A stretch of 64,000 bases of DNA. Source: Allolobophora icterica (Eukaryota > Annelida > Clitellata > Crassiclitellata > Lumbricidae). Made by a program: the position numbers and the translations under genes. Positions 1,095 through 63,887 of this stretch are shown in pieces. Location of the stretch: positions 77,268,736 through 77,332,735 of the forward strand of contig OY744604.1 of assembly GCA_963556255.1 (NCBI GenBank), in the 5' to 3' direction. How positions within the stretch are numbered: the stretch's first letter is position 1; every line of letters begins with the position of its first letter. Below the pieces are notes generated by a model. The model searched no databases. It was not told the origin of the DNA and saw nothing but the letters and a program-made list of their open reading frames with translations.

Positions 1095-1972
1095 TCAGTT
1101 TTCTTCGTTGGGTGTTGTCACAAGAGAAGCGTAGACCGGTGGTTGAAGAGGAATGCGCTCTGTAAGATCCTCGTAATTTCCTTTGCGTCGTGAAGATCCA
1201 GCAGAGAATGAGTCAGGTGTGGCATATGTTCGGACTTTTGTAGCAAGTTCTTGGCTTTTAATTGTTGCGCTGATTTCGTCTTCTTTGGCAGTTTTTGTTG
1301 GTGTCAGAATTGAGGTGTCTTCCTGCACCGCTATTATTGGAATATCTTCTATCAGTGGCTCCTCTTTCACGTGTACGTTTACATATGTAGAATCCAATAC
1401 GAAATTCGGATCTTCTTCGAGTGAGGTTGATTCTGCAGAGGATGGCGCGCTTGCAATTTCAGCGCACTCACTTGAATGATGTTTTGGTTTCGACAATCTG
1501 TACGAGTCATTACTATTTCTGGTAGAACATTCATGATGGTGTTGCTTTGATAAATTAGCGTATGAAATTGGTGGTAGAAAAAGCGCCTGTGGTTGTGCCA
1601 AAGAATCAACAGTTTTATTGATGTAAGGAGCTGTTACCTGTTCTGTTTCTTCTTCTTTTGGAGGCGTATTCACGCGTCTTCTTGGAGCTACATTGCAATA
1701 CACTGATATTTGACGCTGTACAGATACCACTTTGCCGGTTGGTATGGGAGGAACGTGAAAAACTATTGCAGGTGATTCAGGGTCTTCTTCTTCGTTCGAA
1801 TGTTGAGGCAACTCAGCAACAACGCATAAATTGTCGTCAGATATCTCTTCATAGACTGGTCTAACTAATGCTCTTCCTGTCGCTTGTGGATCTGCTGGGC
1901 CTGAGAAGTCAGTGTCAATTTCATCGCCAGTGCTGAGGTTGTTTCTATTCAGCGGTTCCGTCTGTTTTGAAT
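1095..1972 (-). CDS. Receptor gene A, cytoplasmic-tail exon (tyrosine-motif tail)
   Basis: Last exon of gene A. An acceptor (CATTTTAG) precedes 1,972, the exon opens in phase 1 and runs about 291 codons to TGA at 1,097-1,095. The product is a hydrophilic, proline- and acid-rich intracellular tail. Visible tyrosine motifs in order are VYEEI (Src-type SH2 site), SVYCNV, PYINK, ISYANL, STYVNV, NYEDL and VYASL. SVYCNV, ISYANL and STYVNV fit the ITIM consensus; several are YxN sites of the Grb2 SH2 type. NYEDL and VYASL are separated by ten residues, which fits the ITAM spacing YxxL-x(6-12)-YxxL. The 42,346-43,172 exon is a clear paralog conserving most of these sites. Expected role (inference): phosphotyrosine signalling after ligand binding by the Ig ectodomain. 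No intron is seen inside the exon. Confidence 0.85.
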
Positions 1973-2282
1973 CTAAAATGCCGTTATGGCGTTAATCTAC
2001 ATAGCTATAAAATGCTGCGGCTGGGCTGATCAGTAGGGTGCATCGAAAAAAAATTTTTGGGAAAACAATATTCTAATAGTTACCGATAGTTGCCTTTTAT
2101 ACTGCTTAGTTACCATGCAAGTTTTGGGATTTTTTGGATAAGTCCTTGAGGTGCCCCAACGACCCTCAAATGTTCATGATTTGAAGACTCCCGAGCACTG
2201 CATAAAACGTAATTTGTTGTAGGGCTAACTACTTTTGTGTATAGCTTTAAAGAGTTCTGTTGATCTTTTAGTAGGTAGGTAG

Positions 2283-2520
2283 CATGGGCGGCTATCCAGG
2301 GGGTCGAGGGGGACAAGACCCCACCTTTAACACTGGGGACACACCATGCATTGGCCCCCTCCCCGAAATTTTGAAGAAACGCCAAAAAAGGTAAAATAAT
2401 GTTATCGCGACTGAGCGCGACAATTTTTTACTTCTTGTTTAATCAGATCAGTTAAAAACTTTTTTTGACCAGATCATTTCAAAAGTGTCCCCCACCTGTC
2501 AAACAAGATCGCCGCCACTG
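2283..2520. mobile_element. hAT-like MITE nested in the TAGGGTG transposon
   Basis: A 238-bp element bounded by a perfect 8-bp duplication GTAGGTAG (2,275-2,282 and 2,521-2,528). Its ends are imperfect inverted repeats (CATGGGCGGCTATCC against CAGTGGCGGCGATC on the other strand). No coding capacity. Part of it (GGGGTCGAGGGGGACAAG) resembles the inside of the MITE at 21,969-22,264. Confidence 0.85.
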
Positions 2521-3602
2521 GTAGGTAGTAATACATTCGAGTTCCTAAAGATGAGAAGGAGTTTCTAACTGACCAGAGAACAGTAAGGTTGATGTGTATC
2601 AGCAATGTCGACAAACTTACAACAAATAAGCTTGTTAGCAAGCAGAAAAGAAAAGCTAAGCAAGTTCGACGGGCCGAAATATATTGCGTCATTATGTGGT
2701 GGAAGGTCGTGGGTGTTAGTGATGACTCAGTAGACGATTCTGAATCTAATTTCGATAGGCCCTACCAGCAGGTCAAACACTTCTAATCGACTAGAAGATT
2801 AAAGATCGTACTGTTCAATTTAGTAGTAATCAACTTGCGATGAACCTGAATCGAACGTTATAGTCAAGAGACTTTCGAAGTAGACTACCAACATTTAACT
2901 TAAGCCTATGATCGTTTTGGTGTTCCAGGCAGAGCAGCTGCTGAGATAACACCAGATTTCGGTGTTAAATGAGATGCTGATTTGTCAAATGTTATCGACC
3001 AAAATAAAATTAGACGTGAACGATGAAATTAACGCAACGAGCTGGAAGACTTGAACAACGTAGGTGATTTACTCGTTTATTTTTGATGGTCGAAAGATGA
3101 AACTATAGTACAGAATGTCAAGGAAGGAAATAAGTATACTACCGGTGAGCTGTTACCGAGGAAAACTTATCGTTGTTGAATGAAGGAACCAGGATCGACT
3201 TACGTCGGACATATCACCCACGACTAGATCAGCCTTGCAAAATTGTAACCACATCGGAGCATAATTATACATATACTTTCACTATACACATCGCCAGCAT
3301 TTGAAGCTCTTCTGATGGTTTGCAACTGTCAATGTACAATTGCAATATTCTATTTGCAGCTGTCAACCACCGCAAGTGATTCAATGTTCCATGGTGTTTT
3401 TCTAGATTAATTCAACGAGCACTGGCCTCTAAGGACCGTGTTACTAATATCCCACAATACTGCCAGTCACTACTTAAGTCAGTTAAAGTTGCAGGTGGAA
3501 AATCCGATTCAATTTTATCAAAGAGCACTACTGGTAACTGTTTACACGTTAATAAACCCATTGCCGATTGGTCCAGAGAAAGGACGAGGAGCGCTTGTTG
3601 CT

Positions 3603-4021
3603 CCATGTTAACTGATGGCCGTAAGAAAATTTGAAAGCTGGGAATGCGTCATATCCTGAAAGCTAGGAAACTGTGCGGTCTGGAATTCGAAATTCGTTGT
3701 TCCTGTGCTAAAGTTTGATGCCTCTGATGCCTCTGAATTCATTTTCTGGCAATAATGCGTAGCAGAACACCACTAACGTTGGAAGTATCTGATATAGAAA
3801 TGATGCAATTTGTAGCGACGCACCCAGCACAAACGTTCGACTTTCCTAGATTCCAATGCCAATTGCCAATCATAGGCAGTGGAGCGTTATGTTAAAGTAG
3901 GGACTGAGGCTTGCAGCTGCAGTCTGCGGCATCAAAGCTAGGAACGGTTTCATAAGAACAAGATTGGAATCCGGGCGAATAATGCCGACTTTTAACAATA
4001 AGAAAGAATATCGCGTAGCAT
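3603..4021 (+). pseudogene. Decayed transposon protein, C-terminal half
   Basis: Successive short plus-strand frames, broken by frameshifts and stops, read as parts of one protein: a segment beginning MLTDGRKKI and ending HILKARK, then EMMQFVATHPAQTFDFPRF, then QAVERYVKV, then VCGIKARNGFIRTRLESG and MPTFNNKKEY. The first segment aligns with the frame at 7,119-7,436 (MITDEQEHINELGLSRLLKAR), so both are copies of the same family. From memory, such proteins occur as uncharacterised repeated genes in cnidarians, arthropods and other invertebrates; I cannot name the family. Its position inside an element with termini and TSD suggests it is the element's own transposase or accessory protein. Confidence 0.65.
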
Positions 4022-4814
4022 GACTACTTAGGCCTAAGCTTACTTGTATCAATGGGATAAGACTACTACTGTAGTTTACCGTTACTGTAGTTTAGTCTCA
4101 ACTCACTGTTTCATCATCGACATAATGATGGTATAATATAGCTAATATGTTTTACCAATATTCCATTCTACTTCTCATCAGATTCAAGCTGTAGAAGCCG
4201 TTTTTTCTGGACATTACTCCTTGCATAACTTGGGCAAACATTGTGGGTCTAATATCAACATTTCAAGGTCATTGGGGCACCTCAAGGTCATGTGCTAAAT
4301 TGATGAAATTGCACCAGAATACTGCTGACATCAAATGGCAACTACTTTGCACTATTAGAAATAAAAATGAGACAAATTTTTTTTCTCCCATTATGATCGA
4401 TGCACCCTACTGATCAGCGTTATTCCGATATTTGGCGCAGGTTACACAATACACATGTATATGATCAGAAACGCCGAATGAACTGCGCTGCTATCGAGTA
4501 TATGAGAACCATTCTTTTTAATCATGGTTATGTATTTTCAATTCGGGATCACCTATCTCGAAATTCTTCTAATTCTTGAAGAGACGCTATACAAATTATT
4601 GTCTATGAAACAATCACAAGTTATGCATGACAATGCCAGACTAACGGTGAAGAAATAATCTTAAACTTGACATCATCCTAAGTGATACTAAACTGCTTAT
4701 AAGTTCTTCTCAATGCATTCAAAATCTTAATGGTGTTTTTGAAGCATTAATCTAAATATGATGAATGTTCTAAACCGACTATAAGAGAGAGAGAGAAAAG
4801 TAGATTTGCATTAC

Positions 4815-5342
4815 GCGTCGTGTATCTTCTTGTGATGAAACGGATCGACAGAAAAACGCCACCAACAATGCATATTGCAGCAACGATAGGAATTATAATC
4901 GCAAGAAGAGATCTAGATTTGGTTGAATCTTTATCCAACCTACTAAACAAAAAGTTTGACTCTTTTGTAACATACAAAGTTTTGGACATCCAAGTGAAAG
5001 AATATTCTGGTACGTTGTTTGAAACTGGCCATGTTACGCGTCCCGTAACATGTTTAGCACATTCAGCCGATCGACTGAATTCCGTGAAATGGGTAGTGCA
5101 TGCATACTTACAACCATCCAAATTCGAATGAGCAGTTATGTTGATAGTAGAAATGACGACGTTGTTAGTACAGGAAGAGTTAATAGAACCAATATCGACT
5201 GTTGATTCATCTCCGTTGGCTGAAATCATCTTCCATTCCATCACTGGAGTCCAGCTTCCGACATAGTTAACGCTGCACCGCATCTGTACACTGGAATGTA
5301 GATCCCGCCCATCGTCATCTACCTCACAGCGTGGATTAGACT
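4815..5342 (-). CDS. Receptor gene A, second Ig domain plus transmembrane exon
   Basis: Internal exon with acceptor AATTTCAG before 5,342 and donor GTAATG after 4,815; it is phase 1 at both ends. It encodes an Ig-like domain with cysteines in the QMRCSVNY and KYACTTHF contexts, a GSWTPVMEW core matching the GNWIPVMEW of genes B and C, and a closing NVPEYSFTW motif. A short stalk follows, then a hydrophobic helix (AIIIPIVAAICIVGGVFLSI) and a basic stop-transfer stretch (RFITRRYTTR). In B and C the Ig2 and TM parts lie on separate exons, so here they are fused or were never split. Donor and acceptor phases match the tail exon. Confidence 0.85.
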
Positions 5343-5755
5343 CTGAAATTGGTATAATATTTAGCATATTGCGTCGCAATTTATTAACATGCTTTCAATT
5401 TAACCTCAATGCAAACCTAGCTCCAAAAGATTAAATAAGCACTTTCAAAAGAATAAATAGGGCCTAGTTTACAAATGAAGTATTAATTTTTCAAACTGGA
5501 ATCTATTTTTCGTAATCTTTCGTTATATTTCTTACTTTCAACATTATTTTCCCTTTATGAGTGGTGGCCTTTGTCAGATTATATTGCAATATCCACATGA
5601 CTGAAAATGAATATGATGAACTCAGCATTTCACAAACGCTAGAGAAGTGATAAAACAAAAGAAAATCATAAGTCTAACTGCAATAGCATAAGAGTAATGT
5701 TTGATTTCAGATCCAATCTATAGAGCAAGCCTTGTGAGATGCCGTTAACACTTAC
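5343..5755 (-). other. Gene A intron between Ig exons
   Basis: 413-base AT-rich intron with GTAAGTG donor and AATTTCAG acceptor; nothing else recognised. Confidence 0.7.
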
Positions 5756-6067
5756 CCAATACAACTAGATTAGCGCCGGCCCTTCCCACACCAGCCTCCT
5801 CACACACATAATGTAATGGAATGTCCTTTCTTGTCCTCACTTTAAGTGCAAATTGTCCTTTTGTTGAGTTGTTAATCTCGCAGCAGTCTGTGTATTTGTT
5901 CACAAATCTATTTCCTGTATAAATTGTAGCCAGTGGTACGTCTGTAAGCGTTTCATCTATTATTCTCCAAAGCAGTTTGCTGTTATTCGTCTTACAGTTC
6001 ATGATGGCAACATCTCCTTCAACCACAGCTGCGTTTTTAGGCACAACTGTCAGTTTGGTTTTGCTAC
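5756..6067 (-). CDS. Receptor gene A, first Ig domain exon
   Basis: Internal exon with acceptor GTGCACGCAG before 6,067 and donor GGTAAGTG at 5,756/5,755; phase 1 on both sides. It encodes one V/I-type Ig-like domain: a cysteine in IMNCKTN, a tryptophan in KLLWRI, a YTGNRF turn, a second cysteine in HYVCEE and a closing LVVLG strand. The YTGN and CEE-GV motifs also occur in the paired exons of B and C, which are more like each other than like A. An extra Cys-Cys pair lies in the middle (TDCCEI). No signal-peptide exon could be identified upstream. Confidence 0.8.
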
Positions 6068-6490
6068 CTGCGTGCACAAAGTTCAGTGCATCATTCAGAA
6101 TATTTTTCAGCAATTTCAACTAACATTTATTATTATTTATCAATATATCGTTGGTGCGTGTATTTTGCTAGATGCGGTTTGCACTTTTGGGTTTAAACAG
6201 CGACCTGCCTCATATTGTAGATCTACACCAGTTCTTGCAAGTAAAAGATCTCATTAGTTTTAAATCTTGATGCCTCTGCGTAAATATCCAGCGAGCAGCT
6301 GCTGTGCTCCATCTTATCTCAAGAATTGTGCATCACCGGCTCTGTGTTTTCGCTTTGAGAGCCGGAATTGACATTGTGGGATATGTGGTTACTAGTTGTG
6401 CTTAGTGAAGTCACTCATTGTACATCATCAGCCCGCCCTTAGAAGTGACCAACCAAGCAAAATACTTGCATACAGAAATATATGTGCATT
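6068..6490. other. Upstream of gene A Ig1: no gene seen
   Basis: AT-rich sequence between the first recognised exon of gene A and the decayed transposon copy. A leader exon should lie on this side, but no convincing hydrophobic start with a phase-1 donor is visible. Confidence 0.4.
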
Positions 6491-17825: not shown

Positions 17826-17962
17826 TCAGTTGCGATGGGGATCATTTATAGCAGGGTCATTCATTATTACTGAGATGATTAAAGTACCATTTGGTGTTAC
17901 GTTTGCGTTCGTGTCAGCTCGATCGTGTCCAATAGTTGAATCAAGGCACTTCGATATGCAAC
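17826..17962 (-). CDS. Receptor gene B, predicted short cytoplasmic-tail exon
   Basis: The acceptor ATATTGCAG precedes 17,962. The phase-1 end of the B TM exon reads directly into a 45-codon frame (starting GCISKCLDS, ending NDPHRN) that stops at TGA 17,828-17,826. The tail is short, rich in Ser/Thr/Asn/Asp and has no tyrosine, so it cannot carry the phosphotyrosine motifs of genes A and C. Support is limited to a plausible acceptor, correct phase and an open frame; there is no paralog in this window. The true tail could instead be an unrecognised exon elsewhere between 6 and 17.8 kb, or B could end inside its intron. Confidence 0.4.
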
Positions 17963-18125
17963 CTGCAATATATTTACACAGTTCACAATTAATACTTTTT
18001 CAATGATTCCGTAAATTAAGAAAACTGGTTATCTTGTTACGAATCTGTAGGACTGTATACGTTTCAGATTCAAAGAATGTTATTTAGATTTAACACACAA
18101 ACACAACCTTATATCAAATTATAAA

Positions 18126-19450: not shown

Positions 19451-19610
19451 TACGCGTCAGTTCGGGATAATGTCCTTTCTGGATAAGATCACCTGCTGCT
19501 CCTTTGCCTCAGCCCCACTTCCCTCCCTCTCATCATTTTCTAATACTTCTCTCATGCCGTTCTCCTGCCCTTCCTTCCTTGTGTGAGGACTCGCAATATT
19601 TCATGCTTAC

Positions 19611-19784
19611 CTTCGTTAGTTTTCTTGCATGTGATGCACACTATAATAGCCAACAGGATGCAAAGAATAATCATGGAAATCAGAATAGGTTTTAAACCAT
19701 CAACGTTAGACGTATTAATTTGTGTAGTAGGAGAGCTGTCTTTGTCAGTTGAGATCGGCTGTGTAGAATGTGACTCAGTTGTTA
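19611..19784 (-). CDS. Receptor gene B, stalk and transmembrane exon
   Basis: The acceptor GCTTTTCAG precedes 19,784 and the donor GTAAGC follows 19,611; phase 1 at both ends. The 57-codon frame gives a Ser/Thr-rich stalk (TTESHSTQPISTDKDSS), a hydrophobic helix (PILISMIILCILLAIIVCIT) and a CKK stop-transfer. Layout matches the gene C TM exon but the sequences differ greatly, so the two are not recent copies. It joins in frame to the Ig2 exon at 22,784. Confidence 0.7.
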
Positions 19785-22783: not shown

Positions 22784-23125
22784 TGGTTGATGTGTCAAGT
22801 GAGTCATCTGGATATGTCCAAGTGTAAGAATATTCTGGTATATTTGTTGCTGTTGTTAAACGAGGTCGTCCTGTGGCGTTGAATCTGATTGTACACTTAT
22901 ATTTCGACCTTATATCTATTGGTTGAACACTCAATGTGGAAACAACGGTGTCTTTGCTTGCGTTGGTGTTAATTCCATGAGTGATCAGTTTTGCTTCATT
23001 TACCATTTCTCCAGATATTTGTCGCCATTCCATCACCGGAATCCAGTTACCAAAGTAACGTAGACGACACTCCATCCGAAGACCAGTGGTACTTCCATTA
23101 ATACGAGAACATGCTGGATCGGATG
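22784..23125 (-). CDS. Receptor gene B, second Ig domain exon
   Basis: Acceptor TTTGTTTCAG before 23,125 and donor GTAAGT after 22,784; phase 1 at both ends. It encodes an Ig-like domain with cysteines in RMECRLRY and KYKCTIRF, the FGNWIPVMEW core and the closing NIPEYSYTW motif, plus an extra cysteine near the start (DPACSRI). It has N-glycosylation sequons such as NAS and NAT. Nearly the same sequence as 49,938-50,279, including intron flanks. It joins in frame to the Ig1 and TM exons. Confidence 0.85.
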
Positions 23126-23432: not shown

Positions 23433-23756
23433 CCAAGACTATAAGTTCGGCACTAGATTTCGAGACTCCTGGTTCTTCACAGATGTATCTTCTGGCAGTT
23501 GTGTTGAAAGCTTTAATTTTGAGGTCAAACTGTCCTTCATTTGTAGTATTGATCGCATACAACTCCTTGACAATATTTGCAAATTTGTTACCTGTATAGA
23601 TTACCACGATGGTGTCGTTTTCAGAGAATTGTATTCGCCAAAGTGGTCTACCTGTGTAATTTATAGGTATTGTATTCGTTCTGCAATTGAGGACAGCTTC
23701 ACTGCCTTCATGGGCTACTGTGTTGTTTGGAACAAAAGTCAGTATTCCACTGCAAT
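23433..23756 (-). CDS. Receptor gene B, first Ig domain exon
   Basis: Acceptor TTTTTCCAG before 23,756 and donor GGTAAGA at 23,433/23,432; phase 1 at both ends. The intact Ig-like domain starts DCSGILTFVPNN, with the cysteine pair in VLNCRTN and RYICEE, the tryptophan in PLWRIQ and several NxT sequons. The paralog at 50,582-50,904 is frameshifted, so this is the only intact member of this subtype here. The leader exon upstream is not identified. Confidence 0.85.
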
Positions 23757-24847: not shown

Positions 24848-25586
24848 CAGGGCATTGATTCGAATTAGTTAACTAAAAAGTTGCCAGCTTTTAGTTTAAC
24901 TAAAAAAATTTATTTAAGGATGAAGTTTAACTAAAAAAGGTTTAGTTAAAACCATAGTTTAACTAAATTTGTTTAGTTGCTAACTAAAAAGTTTAACTAA
25001 AAAATCAGCAATATATGCAATTTTTTTCCAAAATGAACATTGTCAACAAATCAATGTGAAACTAACTGATTAACACTGTATGGTTTTAGCATTGACAGCC
25101 TGTGTTTTCAAATTCATACATTACTTAACCCTCTACGGAACCAAGGTTTTTTTAACATTTTCTTGATTTCATTGAAAAAATATAAAATAGCAAGACGTTG
25201 CAAACAAAATGCCAACTGAGCAACGAGTAATATATCAGGAGATGCTGTAACAAGTCCAGTAGCGCATAAGTGCAAAAATGCACTGCAAGGTGAGCTGTAT
25301 GTACTGTAAGGTGATAATGCAAAGATGCACTTCAGGCCCATAGAGGGTTAATTACAGTATGCCTCTAACTGTGTGCTATTGACGCTCTGCATTATAACAG
25401 TTCACTTAACCTATGTTATTGTGAAAATGTTTGTCGTAAAAGTTGGAAAAAGTTGGAAAAAGTTTAACTACTTTTTCTTAGTTTAGTGAACTGATTTCCA
25501 AAATCAGTTGCCAACTTTAGTTAAACTATTTTTTAGTTGGAAAATAGTTTAAGTTTAACTAAAAAATAGTTTAGTGCCCATCACTG
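24848..25586. mobile_element. Element with GTTTAACTAAAAA repeats, hAT-like end
   Basis: Both flanks contain many copies of TTTAACTAAAAA and its complement (24,870-25,010 and 25,440-25,570). The right end read from outside is CAGTGATGGGCACTAAAC, a typical hAT-type terminus; the left end CAGGGCATTGATTCG is a poorer match. No clear target duplication, perhaps because the right flank is a microsatellite. Non-coding. Confidence 0.55.
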
Positions 25587-25803
<217 letters not shown>

Positions 25804-25805
<2 letters not shown>

Positions 25806-28000
25806 TGGCGGTCAAGGCCACAGTGCGTAAGTGGAAGGATTTATTTTATGCGAATAGCATCGTTTTCTTTAAGTTTACATGCGAAGGGAACAGCATCGTT
25901 TCTCTTAATTTTACATGCGAAGGCCCAGCATCGATCATTTAATTTTTATTTAATTTCAATAGGCAACTGGCCAGCAACGACCGTGGTAGGGAAGACTGAT
26001 TATATATTTTAAGCCACGGTATAGTGTGGTGAGGGATAAGTAGAGGCTGCCTCACGGTGTGCTGCTTTATACGTGAAGAGTTGGTTCGACTCTTCATACA
26101 TAGCAATACTGTTAAACAGCGTTGTTGGTTAGCGATTCAGTTACCGATTCAAATATACTGCACTCAGTGTGGTAGGCGAGTGATTTTGGTTACGACCGAG
26201 TCAGAGTTCGAGTTTCCGGTTAGTACAAATATATTTACGGACGAAAGGGGCGTCCGAATAATATAATCAGGCGATCCCGAGTACAGCTAAAGAAGTTCAC
26301 TGTTGGGAGACGGGCCGACAGCGCCGATCCGGCGGGTTGGATCCCTCAGTTGATCGCGAAGCGGTCTAGATCCCAATTGTGGGAAATCTACGGCTGAGTA
26401 ATACTCGGGGAAGGATACCGTTGATACACAGGAAAACTAATTCAGTGTGAGATCGAAAACCAGGGTAAATTTGGCGTCGGGCAAGGAAATCCCTCTTGGA
26501 GTTCGAAGAACTCCAAGATCCGACAGTGTTTGGTTTTATCCACTGAGGAGAGTTTTACGCGATTTCGGCGTACTCGACACAGGGGAAGTTCTACGCGCTT
26601 TCGGCGTACTCGGCCGGGAGAGTTTTACGCGACTTCGGCGTCTTCGGCTGGGAGAGTTTTACGCGACTTCGGCACTCGGTGAAGTGACCGTCGGGATACC
26701 TGAAAAAACCAATTTAGTACAAAAACGATAATAAGGGTAAATTTGGCGACAGGCAGGAAATTCCCTCTTGGGTTTTGAAGAACTCCGCGATCGGAGCTTG
26801 TCCGGTAACCCATGGGAGTAAGTGTGACCTTCTTAAGGTAGCCAAATTTCGGAAATTCTGATAATACTCGAAACCGAGTTGGGACCATCCACTGGTTAAC
26901 TGAGAGGCAAGCGAAGCTTGTCCGGTTACCTGTGGGAGTAAGTGTGACCTTCGTTAGGGAACCAAAATTCGGAAATTCTTGGGAACCAAATTCAAGACAT
27001 TCTGGTAACCTTACGGGGTCAGCGTTACATTTGGATTGTGACACTTGGATGGCTGACACGCCGGTGGAGCGTTGGAGGGGCTCCATCGCCCGGTAACTAA
27101 AAATAGTTACTGGGAAAGACCACTGTTACCGAAAGACCGCAGTACGGGAAAAGACCGCCCGACAACTGATTACAGTGCGGTAAGACCAGGAAAACGATAG
27201 AATCAGGAAAATCTTGTATTCAAACCAGTCGTTATTCAGAGCAAATAACTTGGTGATCGAAACACGTAGTTCCGAGAACTGACCGAAGTGCGAAGTAGGG
27301 CCCACCTCGTGCGCCGGTCGGAACACAGTTCTGCGTGCGGTTAGGGAGGTTTTAGACCTAGAACCTGTCCTATCAGAAGAGAGTGTCGTGAGACCAGTAT
27401 ACCGCGTTAATATTACACGTATATATATTATCGCAAGATGTTCGCGTGTTTGAGACGGCACGACGTGACGACTCGTCAGATGTACACCTTGTCCTCTCGG
27501 ACAAGAGAACGTTCAGAGTTTTCCCCTATTGACGATAACTCGAGAGTCATGAGATGCAGAATGGTACGTGAGGGTTCGGTTAAGGTGGAGAAAAAGAGAA
27601 AGTCTTTGACTAAGAGATCTCACAGGAAGCTGAGGACTCCTGCCGGCAAGAGAGCGAACCCTGTTCTAAAGGACGGCCATCCTGAGGACGAGGACGTTGC
27701 CCACCCGGCGACCGCGGCAGTGGCAGAGTCCGAAAGTGAGATGGAGCTTGACAGCGACACTGTTCGCAAACAAGCGATACCCTCGGGACCTCCTCTTGGA
27801 GAAATGGGCACTGAGAGCGGAGACAGGGAACCGCTCGTCTACAGCAGAAGTAGACAGGATAGTGACCCGGGCGACTCCAGAAGGTCAGTTGGCTGGAGCC
27901 GAACCCAGCCCGACGACGAAGCAGCGTCTCGGGTAAGACCGACACAAATTGGTACCACGTCTGATGAAGGGTTAGTTGATCTCGAGCGACGAACGTCACA
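25804..28000 (+). repeat. 5' LTR of retrotransposon 1 (2,197 bp)
   Basis: Begins TGTGGCGG and ends GTCACA. Unusually, its last ~560 bases are the first ~188 codons of gag. The leader contains four ~34-bp tandem units built on GAGAGTTTTACGCGACTTCG (about 26,535-26,690) and repeated blocks around AAATTCCCTCTTGG and GTGGGAGTAAGTGTGACCTT (26,460-26,960). Confidence 0.92.
27420..27427 (+). promoter_or_regulatory. TATA-like element just before the gag start
   Basis: TATATATA ends ten bases before the first gag ATG. If it drives transcription, RNA would start about 25-30 bases downstream, past that ATG, and translation would begin at a later in-frame Met (27,480 or 27,549). An alternative TATA-like stretch lies at 26,000-26,011. 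Not proven. Confidence 0.3.
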
Positions 28001-38283: not shown

Positions 38284-41200
38284 TATTAAAATGAAACCGA
38301 CTACCAACGTTTCTCCGATTCTCGTAGACCTCCTCTTATAACTCATTATTTATCTTTAGCCTTTAAAAATGTGGATATCTAACTGCTTTCATCTGGTGAA
38401 TGACTAATTACGCCTTCGATTCACATTTCTGTTTGACTGCGCATTAAACAGTATCATAAGAGTAAAAATAATACCGAGGATCTAAAGTGGCCTCTCCTTT
38501 GTTTAGTTCAGCTATGTTTTATGACTCGGTTTGCCATTAATTTTAGGCGCTGCGATGAGTGCTGTTACTGAACTGATGAGTTGGAGCCACTGGGATATAA
38601 TGATTAAATGTCTAAATAATGCGCGATATATGACGATGACTTGAGCTCTATAGAAATCTACAGCGAAATACACACATTATGTTGTAGTCGTTTTATAGGC
38701 CTATACATAAAAATTATTGACACTCGTAAGGATGAATTACACGATATTGTCACCCGAGCAATTTACAATGTTTGATATAAAATTTAAAAATTCATAAATT
38801 ACCTTGTCCAAAGATCGAAAAAGCTATCACAAAGCAGATAGTACAAGTCCTCATGTCTACGCCTAACTACTGATTAGATATTTAACAAACAAACGTTACT
38901 CTTTCCTGTGAAGAAGCATAAAGGCCAGCTATTTAAGTGGCATGTTCATAAAATGCACGTAATATGCGCAAGAGAGTACATAGATGACTAGCGACCTAAT
39001 CATAATTATTATCTCAACTATTTGCTAAACAGAATAACTTCATCCGCTTTCCGCCGTGTTATGTAGCCAGCGTCACGTTCTAAGCGATGTGGTTAATTTA
39101 TTATAATGAGATACAAACCGCACAACGATAACGAGAACATAATGATACAAGGTAACGTTCAGGGTTTTCTAAGGCCCATCAACGTTTTCTATTTATAGTG
39201 CATCGTAAAAACATTGTATAAATCCGGATTGTGCAACCATTGAAAGAGTTATAATTAGCAATGCATGAAACACGTGATTCAGTATATAGCGCATTGTAAC
39301 CGACAAGATGAGTTAACAAAGCAACACGAAAACGCGCAGCAAGAGAACAAACAGCTGCTCGACAGCGCATGCTTAATCATCGCAAATAAGCAAAATGTAA
39401 TATTTAATTTTAACCTTCACTCTACATACTGACCTTTAGGCCTAAGAAAGCATATCTTTACCTGCACAAAAGGAGACCATTTCGCCTCAACAGTGTTGTT
39501 TACTTAAGGACGCAAACAATAAACGGAATAGACCACGCACAACTTCTTAGCTCGTATGTTAGAAATTAAGACCAGAGCTGAAGTTAAATAATCCCGTACC
39601 CTTTGACTTTTGAGTGGGTTCATTGCTTTCTGGTTCAGCTTGCAAATCTCAGGGTCAGTGGTTCTTTTGCTTCCACTCTTTCAGTCAAGCTGTAAAAATA
39701 CTGGTATAATATAGTCAGCATATTCAACATTTCTTTAGTTTTTCTCGTGTCACATAATAAAATACGGCCCTGCTCGCAGAGCTTCCGGAGTCCCTGAACT
39801 TGTCTTTGTAGAATGTAGATACTAGACTGAGGTATGCCACTGTGAACTGGACATCAACTGAGTCAACAAGATCTAGGCAATTTGTAAAGGCCTACAACCG
39901 TTTCAACCGCTGGGTCGCGTAAAAACTGTGGAAAACACGGTACGGATATTAGAAGTTTGCTCGTATCTTGGATCGAAGGGCGAGGCTGATGGCAACAGCG
40001 AGCCATGAACTCTGACGGCGAATGGCATTCACCAGGGACTGAAGCCTATGAGGAGATTTAATTGGATAATTTGGAATGCGAAAATTTGGCAGGACACAAA
40101 CCTTCGTCTGTTTTATTCTTACATGCTACCTGGGTTCTTTTGTAGGTCTGATACCTTGAGGTTCACAATGGACATAGAAAAGAAAACTGGATGCCTCGCA
40201 ACAAGAGTGCCTTAAATGGGCGTCCGTAGTGGCTACTAGGAGGGTAAGGAAGAATTTGCTCCCCTGGATTTTGCGCATATTTAAAAAAAATTAAATTTTT
40301 GATTATTATGGTTATTACAACAATACCAACACAATTTTATTGCGAAACAACACTAAATTATTTCACTTGACCATTATCTATTTTTAAAGTTTTCGCGTGT
40401 TCTGTGTTCACGAATAGCTATGCAAAAACGTCATTCTGGCCCCCTTCAAAAATTGTGCACCCCCTAAAACATTTCCTGCGGACGTCCATGGTGCCTTAGG
40501 AGAATCCTGCGTCCCCTATATACTGATCATCTGATTAATTCAGAAATTTTCAGGGACACATCCCTATCTCTAGCAGTGAGTTATCATTATACTTAAATTA
40601 CTAGAGCAACTGATCTGGACTTGCACGTGCCAGGTACTCTGCGTGATGTGGAATTCGTGGCGTGTTTAGATATTTCTCGCAAACTTCAAGTCAGTTTGCT
40701 TACGAATTCTTCATAGTGTCTCAGAACAGTTAAGAAATCCTATTAATTGCCTTCTTTAGTAACGTTAACTTTTTAACCAACTTAAAAACTTTAGTAACAA
40801 CTAAAGCTGGACAATTAACATCTTCATTGCGCCATATAAGACAGAAAAAGCAACAGAGCGACGAAAAATACTACAAAGAGGAATAAGAAAAAAGAGCATT
40901 AATAATAGTCTACAGCACATCAGCTCAATGTAGGCCCTAAACAAGTCATCAAATCTACTATACAGTTGACCATAATGTTTATACATGAATACCAATGAGA
41001 AACATTCATCATTATGGTCACAATAATTCTTAGATAATTATTTAATAAGTATGCCCACAGCAGGTTATGAAGAGCAACATCTGACAGAAAGGTACACAAT
41101 GCAAATACAATTTTCAACGTGGTACTTTCGCCATAAAAATAAAATTCAGTCTGCCCAGTCTTTTTATAAAACTTTAAACATTTTCTCATTTCTTATGCCG

Positions 41201-42345: not shown

Positions 42346-43172
42346 TTAGTTTTCGTCGTCTTTTGTTCTGTCAAGACAAGCGTAGACAGGCGGTTGAAGA
42401 GGAATGCGCTTTGTAAGATCCTCGTAATTTCCTTTGCGTCTGGGATATCCATGTGTGGCATAGTTTGGGTCTTTTGTAACAAGTTCTTGCATATCAATTG
42501 TTGCGCTAATTTCGTCTTCCTTGGCGCTCTTTGTTGGTGGCAGAATTGAGGCATCTTCATGCGGCGCACTAGTTGGAATATCTTCTCTCAATGGCTCGTG
42601 TTCCTGGTGTACGTTTACATATGTGGTATCTAACGCAAGATTTGAATCTTCTTCAAGTGAGGTTGATTCTTCAGATGACGCGCTTGGAATTTCAGCGCAC
42701 TCACTTGGCTGATGTTTTGGCAGATCCTGGTTTGGTTCTGACAATGTGAACGTGGCACTTCTATCTGCTGTAGAACAGACATGTTCGTGTGGTTTGGATA
42801 TATTAACGTATTGAATTTTTGGTAGGAAAGGCGCCTGTGGCTGGGGCAAAGAATCGACAGTTTCATTGATGTAAGGAGCTGTTACCTGTTCTGTTTCTTC
42901 TTCCTTTGGAGGCGTATTTACGCGTCTTCTTGGAGCTACATTGCAATACACTGATATTTGGCGCTGAACAGATACTACTTTGGCGGTTGATATGGGTGGA
43001 ACGTGAAGATCTATTGTAGGAGACTCAAGGTCAACCGTCTCTAACTTGTCGTCAGATATCTCTTCATAGACTGGTCTGACTATTGCCGTTGCTGTCGCTT
43101 GTGATTCTGCAGTGTCAATTTCATCGCCAGTGTTGCGCCTGTTGGTCTCCAGAGGTTCCGTCTGTTTTGAAT
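42346..43172 (-). CDS. Receptor gene C, cytoplasmic-tail exon (tyrosine-motif tail)
   Basis: Acceptor ACATTGTAG before 43,172, phase 1, about 274 codons to TAA at 42,348-42,346. Paralog of the gene A tail (1,095-1,972), with the same order of motifs: VYEEI, SVYCNV, PYINE, IQYVNI, TTYVNV, NYEDL and VYACL. IQYVNI fits the ITIM consensus and TTYVNV the ITSM form (TxYxxV). The terminal YEDL and YACL are again ten residues apart, and the segment between them differs from A at one position only (TKRIPLQPPV against TERIPLQPPV). A segment of gene A just before the SVYCNV region is shorter here. The frame is intact even though the gene's first Ig exon is not. Confidence 0.85.
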
Positions 43173-44506: not shown

Positions 44507-44692
44507 CTTTGCAATATACGTTTCTTAGTAATGCTACCAATATGGCAATTCCTGTTCCGAGAAAAGCTGCCGCTAGTATGTAAATTATTGTCACGATGTC
44601 AAAGTTGCTTGGTTCCATAGTATGCCCAAAAGAGGTGGTAGTTTTCAATGAAATCCATTCGCTGTCGGAAATTGTTGCAGGATTCGATGTTC
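44507..44692 (-). CDS. Receptor gene C, stalk and transmembrane exon
   Basis: Acceptor ATCCTACAG before 44,692 and donor GTAACC after 44,507; phase 1 at both ends. It encodes a Ser/Thr-rich stalk (TSNPATISDSEWISLKTTTS) and a hydrophobic helix (IVTIIYILAAAFLGTGIAIL) followed by LLRNVYCK. It joins in frame to the tail exon, giving KD at the junction, and to the Ig2 exon at 49,938, giving Arg. It shows little similarity to the TM segments of A and B. Confidence 0.75.
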
Positions 44693-45127
44693 CTGTAGGA
44701 TACAACACACAAACGAATCGTAGGAAAAAGTATAGAAAGGGAAAGCCATTTGTTAACTACTTGCCACATTATACTTATTAGTAATTTTCTGCACTGTTAA
44801 TTTGACTTAAGATAAACTTGGAATTACATTTTTATGCTTATATAGATACATCTGAAACATAATTCAATCACTGGCTAAAAGTAAAAAAGTTTTAAACTAG
44901 CTAAAAACTAAGTAAAAGTAAAACAAAATTTGTATTTCAATGTGCATTTCTGTACACTCCAAAATTATGAAAAGGTATGTTCATATCCACAAAATTGATA
45001 TCAAAATCAAACAAATCTAATCCCCATTTGCACATAATGAGGTCAAAGTAACGTGTCTTGCTATTAATTTTTAACTTCTAAGCGTAAGTTAAGAAACTCT
45101 TAGCTTAGTACTTATTTATTTATTGGT

Positions 45128-45255
45128 GTATGAAGTGTGTCGTCTGAATATGTCCAACTGCACAAATATTCTGGCATAGGCCTATTTATTGCTGTTGTTA
45201 AACGTGGTCGTGCAATGGCGTTGAATCTAGTTGTACACGTAAGCTTATATTTCCA
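45128..45255 (-). pseudogene. Remnant of a second-Ig-domain exon
   Basis: Strongly similar to the 3' part of the Ig2 exons (compare 49,951-50,060): the pieces coding the Thr-Arg-Phe-Asn-Ala segment and the PEYxxTW end are recognisable, with changes. It is cut off at 45,256 by the start of a SINE, and the donor site is degraded. It has no first half or acceptor. It sits between the gene C TM exon and the Ig2 exon now used, so it is a relic of an earlier ectodomain. Confidence 0.75.
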
Positions 45256-49937: not shown

Positions 49938-50279
49938 TTCTTGATGCATGAAGTGTGTCATCTGGATATGTCCAAGTGTAAGAATATTCTGGTATATTTG
50001 TCGCTGTTGTTAAACGAGGTCGTCCTGTGGCGTTGAATCTGGTTGTACACGTATATTTCCACCTTATATCTATTGGCTGAACAGTCAATATGGAGACAAC
50101 GGTGTCTTTGCTTGCGTTGGTTTTTATTCCATCAGTGATCAGTTTTGCTTCATTTACCATTTCTCCAGATATTTGTCGCCATTCCATCACTGGAATCCAG
50201 TTACCAAAGTAACGTAGGCGACACTCCATCCGAAGACCAATGGTGTTGCTATAAATAAGGGAACATGCTGGATCGGATG
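49938..50279 (-). CDS. Receptor gene C, second Ig domain exon
   Basis: Acceptor TTTGTTTCAG before 50,279 and donor GTAAGT after 49,938; phase 1 at both ends. Very close paralog of 22,784-23,125: cysteines in RMECRLRY and KYTCTTRF, the FGNWIPVMEW core and the NIPEYSYTW end. The frame is open. It could still be expressed if the first exon is skipped, as phases allow. Confidence 0.8.
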
Positions 50280-50581: not shown

Positions 50582-50904
50582 CCAAGACTATAAGTTCGGC
50601 ACTAGATTTCGAGACTCCCGGTTCTTCACAGATGTATCTTCTGGCAGTTGTGTTGGAAGCTTTAATTTTGAGGTCAAACTGTCCTTCATTTGTAGTATTG
50701 ATAGCATACAACTCCTTGACAATATTTCAAATTTGTTACCTGTGTAGATTATCATGATGGTATCGTTTTCAGAGAATTGTATTCGCCAAAGTGGTCTACC
50801 TGTGTAATTTATAGGTATTGTATTCGTTCTGCAATTGAGGACAGCTTCACTGCCTTCATGGGCTGCCGTGTTGTTCGGAACAACAGTCAGTATTCCACTG
50901 CAAT
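50582..50904 (-). pseudogene. Receptor gene C, first Ig domain exon with one-base frameshift
   Basis: Same boundaries and phase as 23,433-23,756 and highly similar. A single base is missing in the AATATTTCAAATTTG stretch near 50,728 (AATATTTGCAAATTTG in gene B), which shifts the frame after YTGNKF and leads to a stop before the exon end. The second cysteine strand is therefore lost. It may be a real lesion or an assembly error; the missing base is not in a homopolymer. Confidence 0.8.
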
Positions 50905-61700: not shown

Positions 61701-63887
61701 CTGAACTGTGGGTGCTTCGGGAGGATTAAACCTGACTCAGTGCCTGCATTTTATCACGGTCGGGTTTGGCTTTGATCTAGGAGATCTTAATATTATTGTT
61801 AATAATATTAACTTTATTGGAATGGAACAGACTGCCAATGTTTCTCATATGCTGCAAATCTTCTTTCCTCCAAGAAAGGCCTTAACACCCATTAATTTAT
61901 GACTGCTTTTAAAAAGTTGGATATCTATCTGCTCTTCATCTGGCGACTGATTAGCTGCGTCTCAGATTCACATTTAGACTGTGTGACTATGCATTAAAAA
62001 GTATCATAAGAAAAAGAATAATACTGAGTACCTGAAGTGGCACCAGCTGGTTTAGTTCAACTGTGGTTTGTGACTCCTCTCGTTATGTAGGCACTACGAT
62101 GAATGCTGTTTCTGAACCGATAAGCATTGAGTTATACAGCGTTATTGTTTAAATAATGCGCAATATGACGATGGCTTAAGCTCTATAACAATTAACAGCG
62201 GAAGACACAGAATATGTTGGATGTCGTTTGAAATGCAGAAACCTGTTGACACTAATAAGGATGCACATACATAATATCGCTATCCCGAGCAATTAATAAT
62301 GTTTGATATATATATGCTAAAACGTCGCAAATTACCTTGTCCAAAGATCGAAAAAGCTAGCATAAGCCATACAGTACAAGTCCTAATGTTCAAGCACTGA
62401 TTGGATATTTAACCAACAAACGTTATTCTTTCTTGAGTAGAAGCATAAAGGCCGGCTGTTGAAGTGTCATGTTCATAATAAGCATATGATATACGCAAGA
62501 GAGCACAATGCATTGATGACTGGCGAACTTATCGTATCTAATATCTCTACTATTTGCTAATAGACCAGCTAACAAAGCAACTTCATCCGCTATCCCCCGT
62601 GTTGTTTCGCCACCATCATGTTCCAGGCGTTGAATATATGTTAACTTATTATAATGAGATGCACACTGCCCAACGATAAAAACAGTAGGACGATAGATGG
62701 TAACTTTCAGCCTCTCTAAAGCCCATCAAAGTTTTTTTATATATTGCAACGTAAAAACATTGCATACATCCGCATATTGTGCAACCATTGAAAGAGTTAT
62801 TAAAAATGCCTGAAACATGTGATTCAGTATAGCGCATTGTAACCGACAAGGTGAGTTAACAAAGCAATACAAAATTGCACAAAAAGAGAACAAACAGTGG
62901 ATCAAAGCGCATGTTAAATTATCGCAGGTATGCGTATTTGATTTCAACATCCAGTGTACAGACTGAGCTTTAGGCCTAAGAAATCTATATCTACACAAAA
63001 GTAAGCCAGAGAATTGCATATTCCCATTTCGCCTCAGTAGTGTTATTCTCTTAAGGACATAATCAATAAACGGGGTATTCTATGCCCAACTTGTTAGCCT
63101 GTGTGTAACAGGTCTTATTGCGTAATATGGAGGCCAAAGTCAGAAGTAAATAATCCCTGACACTTAGGCTTCTGAGTGGGTTCATTGCCTTCTGGCCCCG
63201 CTTGTAAATTTGAGGTTGAGAGTGAGGGTCGAGAGTCAGTAATTTTTTAGTTCCACTCTTTCTATGCGGAAAGATTACATTTAAGCTGCAAAATACTGAT
63301 AAGTACATGACTATACAAGCATCTTAAACATTTCTTTAGATTTTCACGTATCACGTGATGAACTTCGGCTGTTCTTGCTGAGCTTCTGGAGTCCTTGTTA
63401 TTGTAAATACTAGACAGAGAGGTGTGCTACCTTGGACTTGGTATCAACTGGGTCAACAAGATTCAGACAACAGTACAACTTCCTCTACAGGCTACGAAAA
63501 ACACGGTATAACTGATAGGAGATTTCAATTATCTTGGATCGGACGGCGAGGCTAATGGTAACAGCGATTCTGAGCTCCGTCGGCGAATGGCAAATCCCCG
63601 TGGTGGAATGAACACACGTAATCGGGAAATTTTAAATGCGAAAATTCGTCAGGACACCAAAATTTGCCTGATCTTACATGCTACACCTGGGTTCTTCTAT
63701 TATAGGGCTGATACCTTGACGCTGACAATGAACACAGTAAAGAAAATTTTGATGCCTCGGAACAAGGGTGCCTTAGAGAATCTTGCGTCTGCCTTATACT
63801 GTGCACCTTATTATTGTAGAATTTTCATGGACATACCTCCATCTCTAGCAAAGAGTCATCCATATAGAAACTTAAATTACTAGAGGA
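61701..63887. other. Start of a further receptor block (paralog of 38,360-40,610)
   Basis: Colinear with 38,360-40,610 from about 61,908, for example GGATATCTAACTGC against GGATATCTATCTGC and the TTGTCCAAAGATCGAAAAAG stretch. It lacks the MITE found there. No gene recognised; by analogy another receptor tail exon should lie just beyond the window. Confidence 0.7.

Follow-up and report, generated by a model that had tools for sequence, protein, structure and literature searches.

A clustered earthworm family of predicted V-type immunoglobulin receptors with and without an ITAM-like tyrosine pair in the tail

We analyzed a 64,000-nucleotide stretch of the earthworm Allolobophora icterica (assembly GCA_963556255.1, contig OY744604.1, called C3 here; C3:77268736-77332735, hereafter the window) and sought paralogs of its immunoglobulin (Ig) receptor genes in the same 1.118-Gb genome of 328 contigs. 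From its sequence, three genes in the window belong to a large clustered family of receptors: gene A, which is chimeric, gene B, which is complete, and gene C, which is a pseudogene. The family probably encodes receptors that combine a V-type Ig domain, a likely Ig-like domain and a predicted membrane helix, through phase 1 junctions, with one of two kinds of tail. The first kind has a built-in pair of tyrosine sites resembling an immunoreceptor tyrosine-based activation motif (ITAM), which likely works as one, and the second is a short tail without the pair. A sequence-only reading of the window had proposed an ITAM-spaced tail on an Ig-type receptor for gene A, and this was borne out by the recurrence of the pair and its spacing in long, short and distant tails.

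The gene A tail contains YEDL and YASL with ten residues between the leucine of the first site and the second tyrosine, as that reading had stated. When the tail was shuffled 20,000 times, YxxL/I-x10-YxxL/I arose in 57 shuffles and the pattern at any spacing from 6 to 12 in 419, so a single such tail is only moderately unlikely by chance. It is the comparison of paralogs, not the gene A tail alone, that disfavors chance. Twelve tail exons were read, a subset of the family: most of the other loci with the first Ig exon (Ig1) lie outside this set, as do weak pieces on C4, on C14 and near C3:78240550. Eleven of the twelve were tabulated, namely six long tails (gene A, gene C and four more within 190 kb of C3), four short tails and the tail of the distant member L035/L049; the twelfth is the short tail of A62 (C3:77356133-77355936). 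ITAM spacing is defined widely as 6-12 residues and classically as 6-8. The spacing was ten in all 11 tails having the pair, and we call the pair ITAM-like because it fits the wide definition and not the classic one. We accepted it as such an element because the x10 arrangement was kept in 11 of the 12 tail exons, across long, short and distant tails between which alignment is otherwise poor. The strict L/I pattern was present in 10 of the 11 tabulated tails, T5 having YEDF (F at +3 of the first site).

A short tail of ~90 residues that ends in EYEILTERQPLSTPIYTSL or a variant of it is present in three more genes of the cluster, and a fourth short tail with the x10 pair lies at C3:77505726 (L048). 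The distant member, at C3:78.224 Mb and 0.9 Mb away, has exons of its own with phase 1 borders (read by eye) and an Ig1 that is 41% identical; its tail ends in SYIDLDGGERIRPITYTRI, again with the x10 pair. An isolated, broken part of a long-tail end at C1:67094192-67094320 (L007), excluded from the tail counts as a broken piece, still reads YEDL-x10-YVSL. Within the six long tails both tyrosines of the pair are invariant, and no other 20-residue window of the long tail is as conserved as the block that contains them, GNYEDLTERIPLQPPVYASL (94%). We scanned the long-tail alignment with 282 overlapping windows of 21 codons; the three lowest proportions of nonsynonymous differences (pN, 0.053-0.055) belonged to windows that start at columns 274, 275 and 276 and cover the pair. 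The ratio of pN to the corresponding synonymous proportion (pN/pS) was 0.37 at columns 276-296 as compared to 0.76 for the rest of the long tail. The sequence-only reading had also invoked the gene C tail against chance. The order of sites and the x10 spacing are indeed kept there, but the argument is weakened because gene C is a decayed gene, and the further tails described above replace it.

The first extracellular domain is an Ig domain of V type. A profile built from eight paralogs matched antibody and T-cell receptor V domains in PDB (best E 6.7e-5), and the Pfam V-set family was matched in five of the eight members (best E 2e-4), the score shown, that of the first member, being under the Pfam cut-off. 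For the structure model of this domain (predicted local distance difference test, pLDDT, 58) the listed fold matches were Ig by title and mostly antibody V domains. The second domain is likely Ig-like, as its sequence suggests: a Cys, a Trp and the Cys of a YxC are kept in nine paralogs, and weak Pfam matches were obtained to C1-set (E 0.012) and ig (E 0.1), each in one of the nine members. The best match of the gene A second-domain exon was Podoplanin (E 0.0019, under the family cut-off), and there was no Ig among the 50 matches listed in each fold search with this domain, which were proteins of other kinds, the model being shallow and uninformative. Both structure models were shallow (pLDDT 58.4 and 63.5), and PDB sequence searches with single domains gave nothing useful. 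The two-Ig ectodomain proposed earlier therefore stands for its V-type half, while for the second domain the Cys, Trp and YxC pattern and the weak matches point the same way at lower strength. The predicted membrane helices showed no charged residue mid-helix by eye, so our model needs no adaptor.

Using the gene B Ig1 as genome query at a threshold of E 0.001, we identified 55 Ig1 rows, of which 47 lie in a stretch of 2.75 Mb on C3 (C3:75.5-78.3 Mb); of the other eight, two are also on C3 and six on C9. Working genes must be fewer than 55 because some rows are pieces of one gene and some contain stop codons. Four models were complete and had no internal stops: G59 (602 aa, long tail), A81 and A14 (392 and 389 aa, short ITAM-like tails) and gene B (316 aa). 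All four have two extracellular domains between a signal peptide and the membrane helix. The family has three tail types: long with the pair, short with the pair and short without it. The third type occurs on gene B, G47 and G32, and the pair is absent in all three. Gene B is open throughout; the idea that it has no tail at all was dropped once its membrane exon had been located (Table 1). The tails of G47 and G32 each hold one membrane-side tyrosine. Downstream of the gene B stop, window positions 17841-17999 form a conserved open stretch (KSINCELCKYIAG...) with relatives of 66-77% identity downstream of G47 and G32, which may be an alternative tail exon or another element.

Differing tails are seen in two neighbors beside the window, G59 with an ITAM-like tail and G47 with a tail lacking the pair. 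Around the signal exon their DNA is 94.8% identical; a second match, of 91.4%, starts upstream of Ig1 and runs ~220 bases beyond the second domain, with ~1.4 kb inside this match present in G59 only. Past that point the similarity falls to short pieces of 74-80%, and the membrane exon and tail differ. Thus, in sequence, G59 and G47 look like paired receptors, having highly similar ectodomains and tails of different signaling type.

Gene A itself is a product of tail exchange. Its three exons are bounded by AG/GT, joined at phase 1 junctions and all open, giving 573 codons including the stop, which confirmed the earlier proposal that they join in phase; its Ig1 is 41% identical to that of gene B. 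The ectodomain grouped with A81, A14 and A62 (tree support 100/99); four of the six inner branches of this tree are open and L035 is flagged as a long branch, and we used only its split between A-type and B-type. Window positions 4633-6345 match the A-type gene A81 at 79%, and the long-tail genes C, G59, T4, T5 and T6 show piecewise similarity to positions 1-2033 and 4493-4631. A further match of ~100 bases (897-999) to A81 and A62 at 76-78%, on the long-tail side of the breakpoint, is probably a repeat. These matches make gene A a chimera, in which an A-type ectodomain meets, at ~4632, a tail of the kind otherwise carried by B-type genes. The locus G96 represents the reverse exchange, a B-type ectodomain with a short tail, its second-domain exon being split between frames. 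These two swaps indicate that tails move between ectodomains with introns of one phase. The last intron of gene A also contains an element at 2031-4412 that starts with CAGTAGGGTGCATCG, ends in its reverse complement and lies where the match with the gene C and G59 introns is interrupted; from its sequence it looks like a DNA transposon.

The locus shows decay as well as birth. Gene C, on its sequence a pseudogene, has ATT where its relatives have ATG and an Ig1 that is one base short, and we dropped it as a working gene in support of the earlier claim. It also retains a remnant of a second-domain exon (45115-45252) between its membrane and second-domain exons. The ectodomain is likewise broken or incomplete in T4, T5 and T6, and in T6 the membrane exon is affected too.

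The remaining tyrosine sites behaved differently from the pair. The sequence-only reading had listed YEEI, SVYCNV, ISYANL, STYVNV and four YxN sites in the gene A tail, which carries nine tyrosines, and all were present where claimed. All six long tails keep tyrosine at columns 206, 261, 278 and 292, and the five that have column 42 keep it there; in terms of sites, the invariant tyrosines besides the pair are those of YVNV and of the (N/T)YA site in 6/6 and that of YxEI/L in 5/5. The YEEI site itself reads YIEI or YIEL in three of five tails. SVYCNV (column 96) has D or H for tyrosine in two of five tails, APYIN (column 121) has C in two of six, and ISYANL (column 142) has H in one of six. 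Tyrosines therefore vary among paralogs at these three sites and do not vary at the pair or at STYVNV. As a class, five of the nine gene A tyrosines were invariant versus 112 of 272 columns (P=0.29; columns with at least five of the six sequences), and selection on all nine was dropped as an explanation, their invariance being no better than that of the average residue. The sites besides the pair are likely accessory because they evolve loosely. Scanning the 11 tails for the pattern [SIVL]xYxx[ILV] of an immunoreceptor tyrosine-based inhibition motif (ITIM) gave three sites in A and T6, two in C, one in T1 and one in L035, and none in T4, T5 and the four short tails; the L035 match, ITYTRI, is the second tyrosine of the pair itself. 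The ITIM pattern is not kept among family members. The proposal that activating and inhibitory motifs are combined on one chain consequently failed as a family trait, SVYCNV, APYIN and ISYANL having lost the tyrosine in paralogs. A bifunctional receptor, with a working ITAM and a working ITIM or immunoreceptor tyrosine-based switch motif (ITSM) on one chain and switching between activation and inhibition, could draw on the two or three ITIM-pattern sites beside the pair in A, C and T6 and on the STYVNV tyrosine kept in all long tails. We consider it quite unlikely, since T4 has neither an ITIM nor an ITSM pattern, T1 has one of each, T5 has the ITSM form only and the four short tails have none, and since tyrosine gave way to D, H or C at three sites.

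Several observations weigh against the pair working as an ITAM on a functional receptor family. The long tail as a whole is under mild constraint only (dN/dS, the ratio of nonsynonymous to synonymous substitution rates, 0.48-0.95 between pairs), and the A62 short tail has a TGA stop before the pair. The spacing of ten is outside the classic 6-8. ITAMs have an acidic residue just upstream of the first tyrosine, and the long tails have none just before it (N at -1, G at -2); position -1 is E in four of the 11 tails, the short ones, and N or S in seven. Among the six long-tail loci, G59 alone gives a complete model; the other five are incomplete or broken (A without a found signal exon; C, T4, T5 and T6 damaged). 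Finally, YxxL/I also fits the sorting signal of the clathrin adaptor AP-2. Were the YxxL sites such signals and not docking sites for SH2 domains, the end of the second site 4-8 residues from the C-terminus would suit them. Sorting signals need no fixed-distance partner, yet the x10 spacing is kept in nearly every tail exon read, and the residues between the sites are also well conserved in the six long tails; we regard this alternative as improbable. An adhesion or guidance receptor family with a docking tail and no immune role would agree with the resemblance of the first domain to domains of Dpr/DIP, cell adhesion molecule 2 and Robo as well, and with YVNV as a Grb2-type site. It seems unlikely to us, because immune-type receptor families, unlike guidance receptors, usually show tandem birth and decay, exchange of tails, and pairs of which one member has an ITAM-like element and the other lacks it. 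Another reading makes gene A a dead recombinant and leaves its relatives as the sole working receptors; its probability comes close to an even chance without reaching it. No signal exon like the six found for other members was found upstream of gene A, and its tail was exchanged by recombination, but its three exons are open with intact splice borders, and a first exon could have gone unrecognized, or gene A could borrow that of gene B, a signal exon of the same phase.

Under the interpretation that we favor, a receptor family with an ITAM-like pair in some of its tails, clustering by ligand would lead a Src-type kinase to phosphorylate both tyrosines of the pair, as in known ITAM receptors, and a tandem-SH2 kinase of Syk type would then bind the phosphorylated pair. 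The conserved YVNV of the long tails may add a Grb2-type adaptor. Short-tailed members without the pair would dampen the response or vie with the others for a common ligand, as vertebrate paired receptors do. From the gene cluster, its turnover and the tail logic, we infer a use in immunity or allorecognition. We also put forward, tentatively and with our judgment leaning somewhat against it, that a protostome independently built a locus like the leukocyte receptor complex, with dozens of two-domain V-Ig receptors in 2.75 Mb, the ITAM on the receptor, and activating and silent forms made by exchange of tail exons between near-identical ectodomains through phase-1 introns. If true, paired-receptor logic arose more than once, here in a large protostome family with a self-contained ITAM, and the fixed x10 pair would offer a handle on whether Syk-type signaling drives invertebrate immune or self/non-self decisions. 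The locus also displays a route, tails being swapped by recombination in same-phase introns.

The balance between activating and silent or inhibitory tails underlies decisions of natural killer cells and in allorecognition. Vertebrate paired receptors (KIR, LILR, SIRP, CHIR; FCRL) resemble the family described here in having similar ectodomains, differing tails and tandem clusters. The activating partner in vertebrates usually borrows the ITAM of an adaptor through a charged membrane residue; here, unlike in those receptors, the ITAM-like pair is on the receptor itself. By published description, the systems nearest in kind are Botryllus FcoR, Hydractinia Alr and oyster CgIgIT2. The fester co-receptors (FcoR) of Botryllus schlosseri are described with a V-Ig, a sushi and two C2 Ig domains and with ITIM, hemITAM or core motifs (PMC12065747). 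Similar to our family, they are described as a clustered multigene family of type I Ig receptors of 520-610 aa with long tails containing tyrosine motifs, and their members differ in signal motif and sit on several chromosomes (PMC12065747). The FcoR layout of V-Ig, sushi, two C2-Ig, membrane helix and tail was not found in any of our four complete models, which have two extracellular domains; these and the two-tyrosine x10 pair set the families apart by description only. Hydractinia Alr, likewise an invertebrate Ig family of large size, is reported to comprise 41 genes in one complex, with ITAM or ITIM motifs on candidates. Oyster CgIgIT2 is described as an invertebrate Ig receptor with its own ITAM, found mostly in hemolymph and signaling through ERK phosphorylation (PMC11999971). 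It is described as one named gene with five Ig domains (PMC11999971), whereas here there are two domains and dozens of related Ig exons. Protein searches for relatives elsewhere found none with the gene A chain (E up to 0.1) or with A81 (E up to 1), and a literature search, largely without subscription papers, found no description of such a family with an x10 pair.

The features located in the window are collected in Table 1.

Table 1. Receptor features of the window (window positions; "." means no strand)
Feature	Position	Strand	Remarks
Gene A cytoplasmic tail exon, 292 codons + stop	1095..1972	-	relatives: five on C3, fragment on C1
YEDL-x10-YASL pair, ITAM-like	1122..1175 (codons 1175-1122)	-	lowest-pN tail stretch, spacing kept
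STYVNV	1374..1391	-	Tyr invariant, 6/6 long tails
ISYANL, ITIM-like	1551..1568	-	Tyr lost in 1/6
SVYCNV, ITIM-like	1689..1706	-	Tyr lost in 2/5
YEEI	1842..1853	-	Tyr in 5/5; EEI in A and C only
Recombination breakpoint in intron, A-type vs long-tail sequence	4631..4633	.	similarity switch
Gene A second extracellular domain + transmembrane helix, one exon, phase 1-1	4815..5342	-	borders, frame
Gene A first extracellular exon (Ig V-type domain), phase 1-1	5756..6067	-	AG/GT borders, open frame
Gene B membrane exon + short tail without tyrosine, stop	19552..19784	-	full model 316 aa
Gene B second extracellular exon	22784..23125	-	
Gene B Ig1 exon	23433..23756	-	
Gene B signal-peptide exon	38803..38854	-	
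Gene C long tail exon, YEDL-x10-YACL	42346..43172	-	
Gene C membrane exon	44507..44692	-	
Gene C second extracellular exon, open	49938..50279	-	
Gene C Ig1 exon, one base shorter than gene B's, frame lost near 50727	50582..50904	-	
Gene C signal exon, ATT where relatives have ATG	62336..62387	-	

An Rfam scan of the window gave nothing at gathering score. In the genome, two matches to the microRNA bantam (best E 3.8e-8, under the family cut-off) point to a protostome and would be out of place in a cnidarian such as Hydractinia; a mir-103 search, in which no control gave a signal, yielded no match. Several long retrotransposon-like frames lie at 25.8-37.7 kb and 51.9-61.4 kb of the window; by eye, the pol type looks Ty3. 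One such group sits within the first intron of gene B, and the insertions appear recent because they contain stretches 100% identical to each other. A long array of simple repeats occupies window positions 25543-25821, and an unassigned open frame of ~356 codons lies between two receptor genes at C3:77408018-77409085 (in L019).

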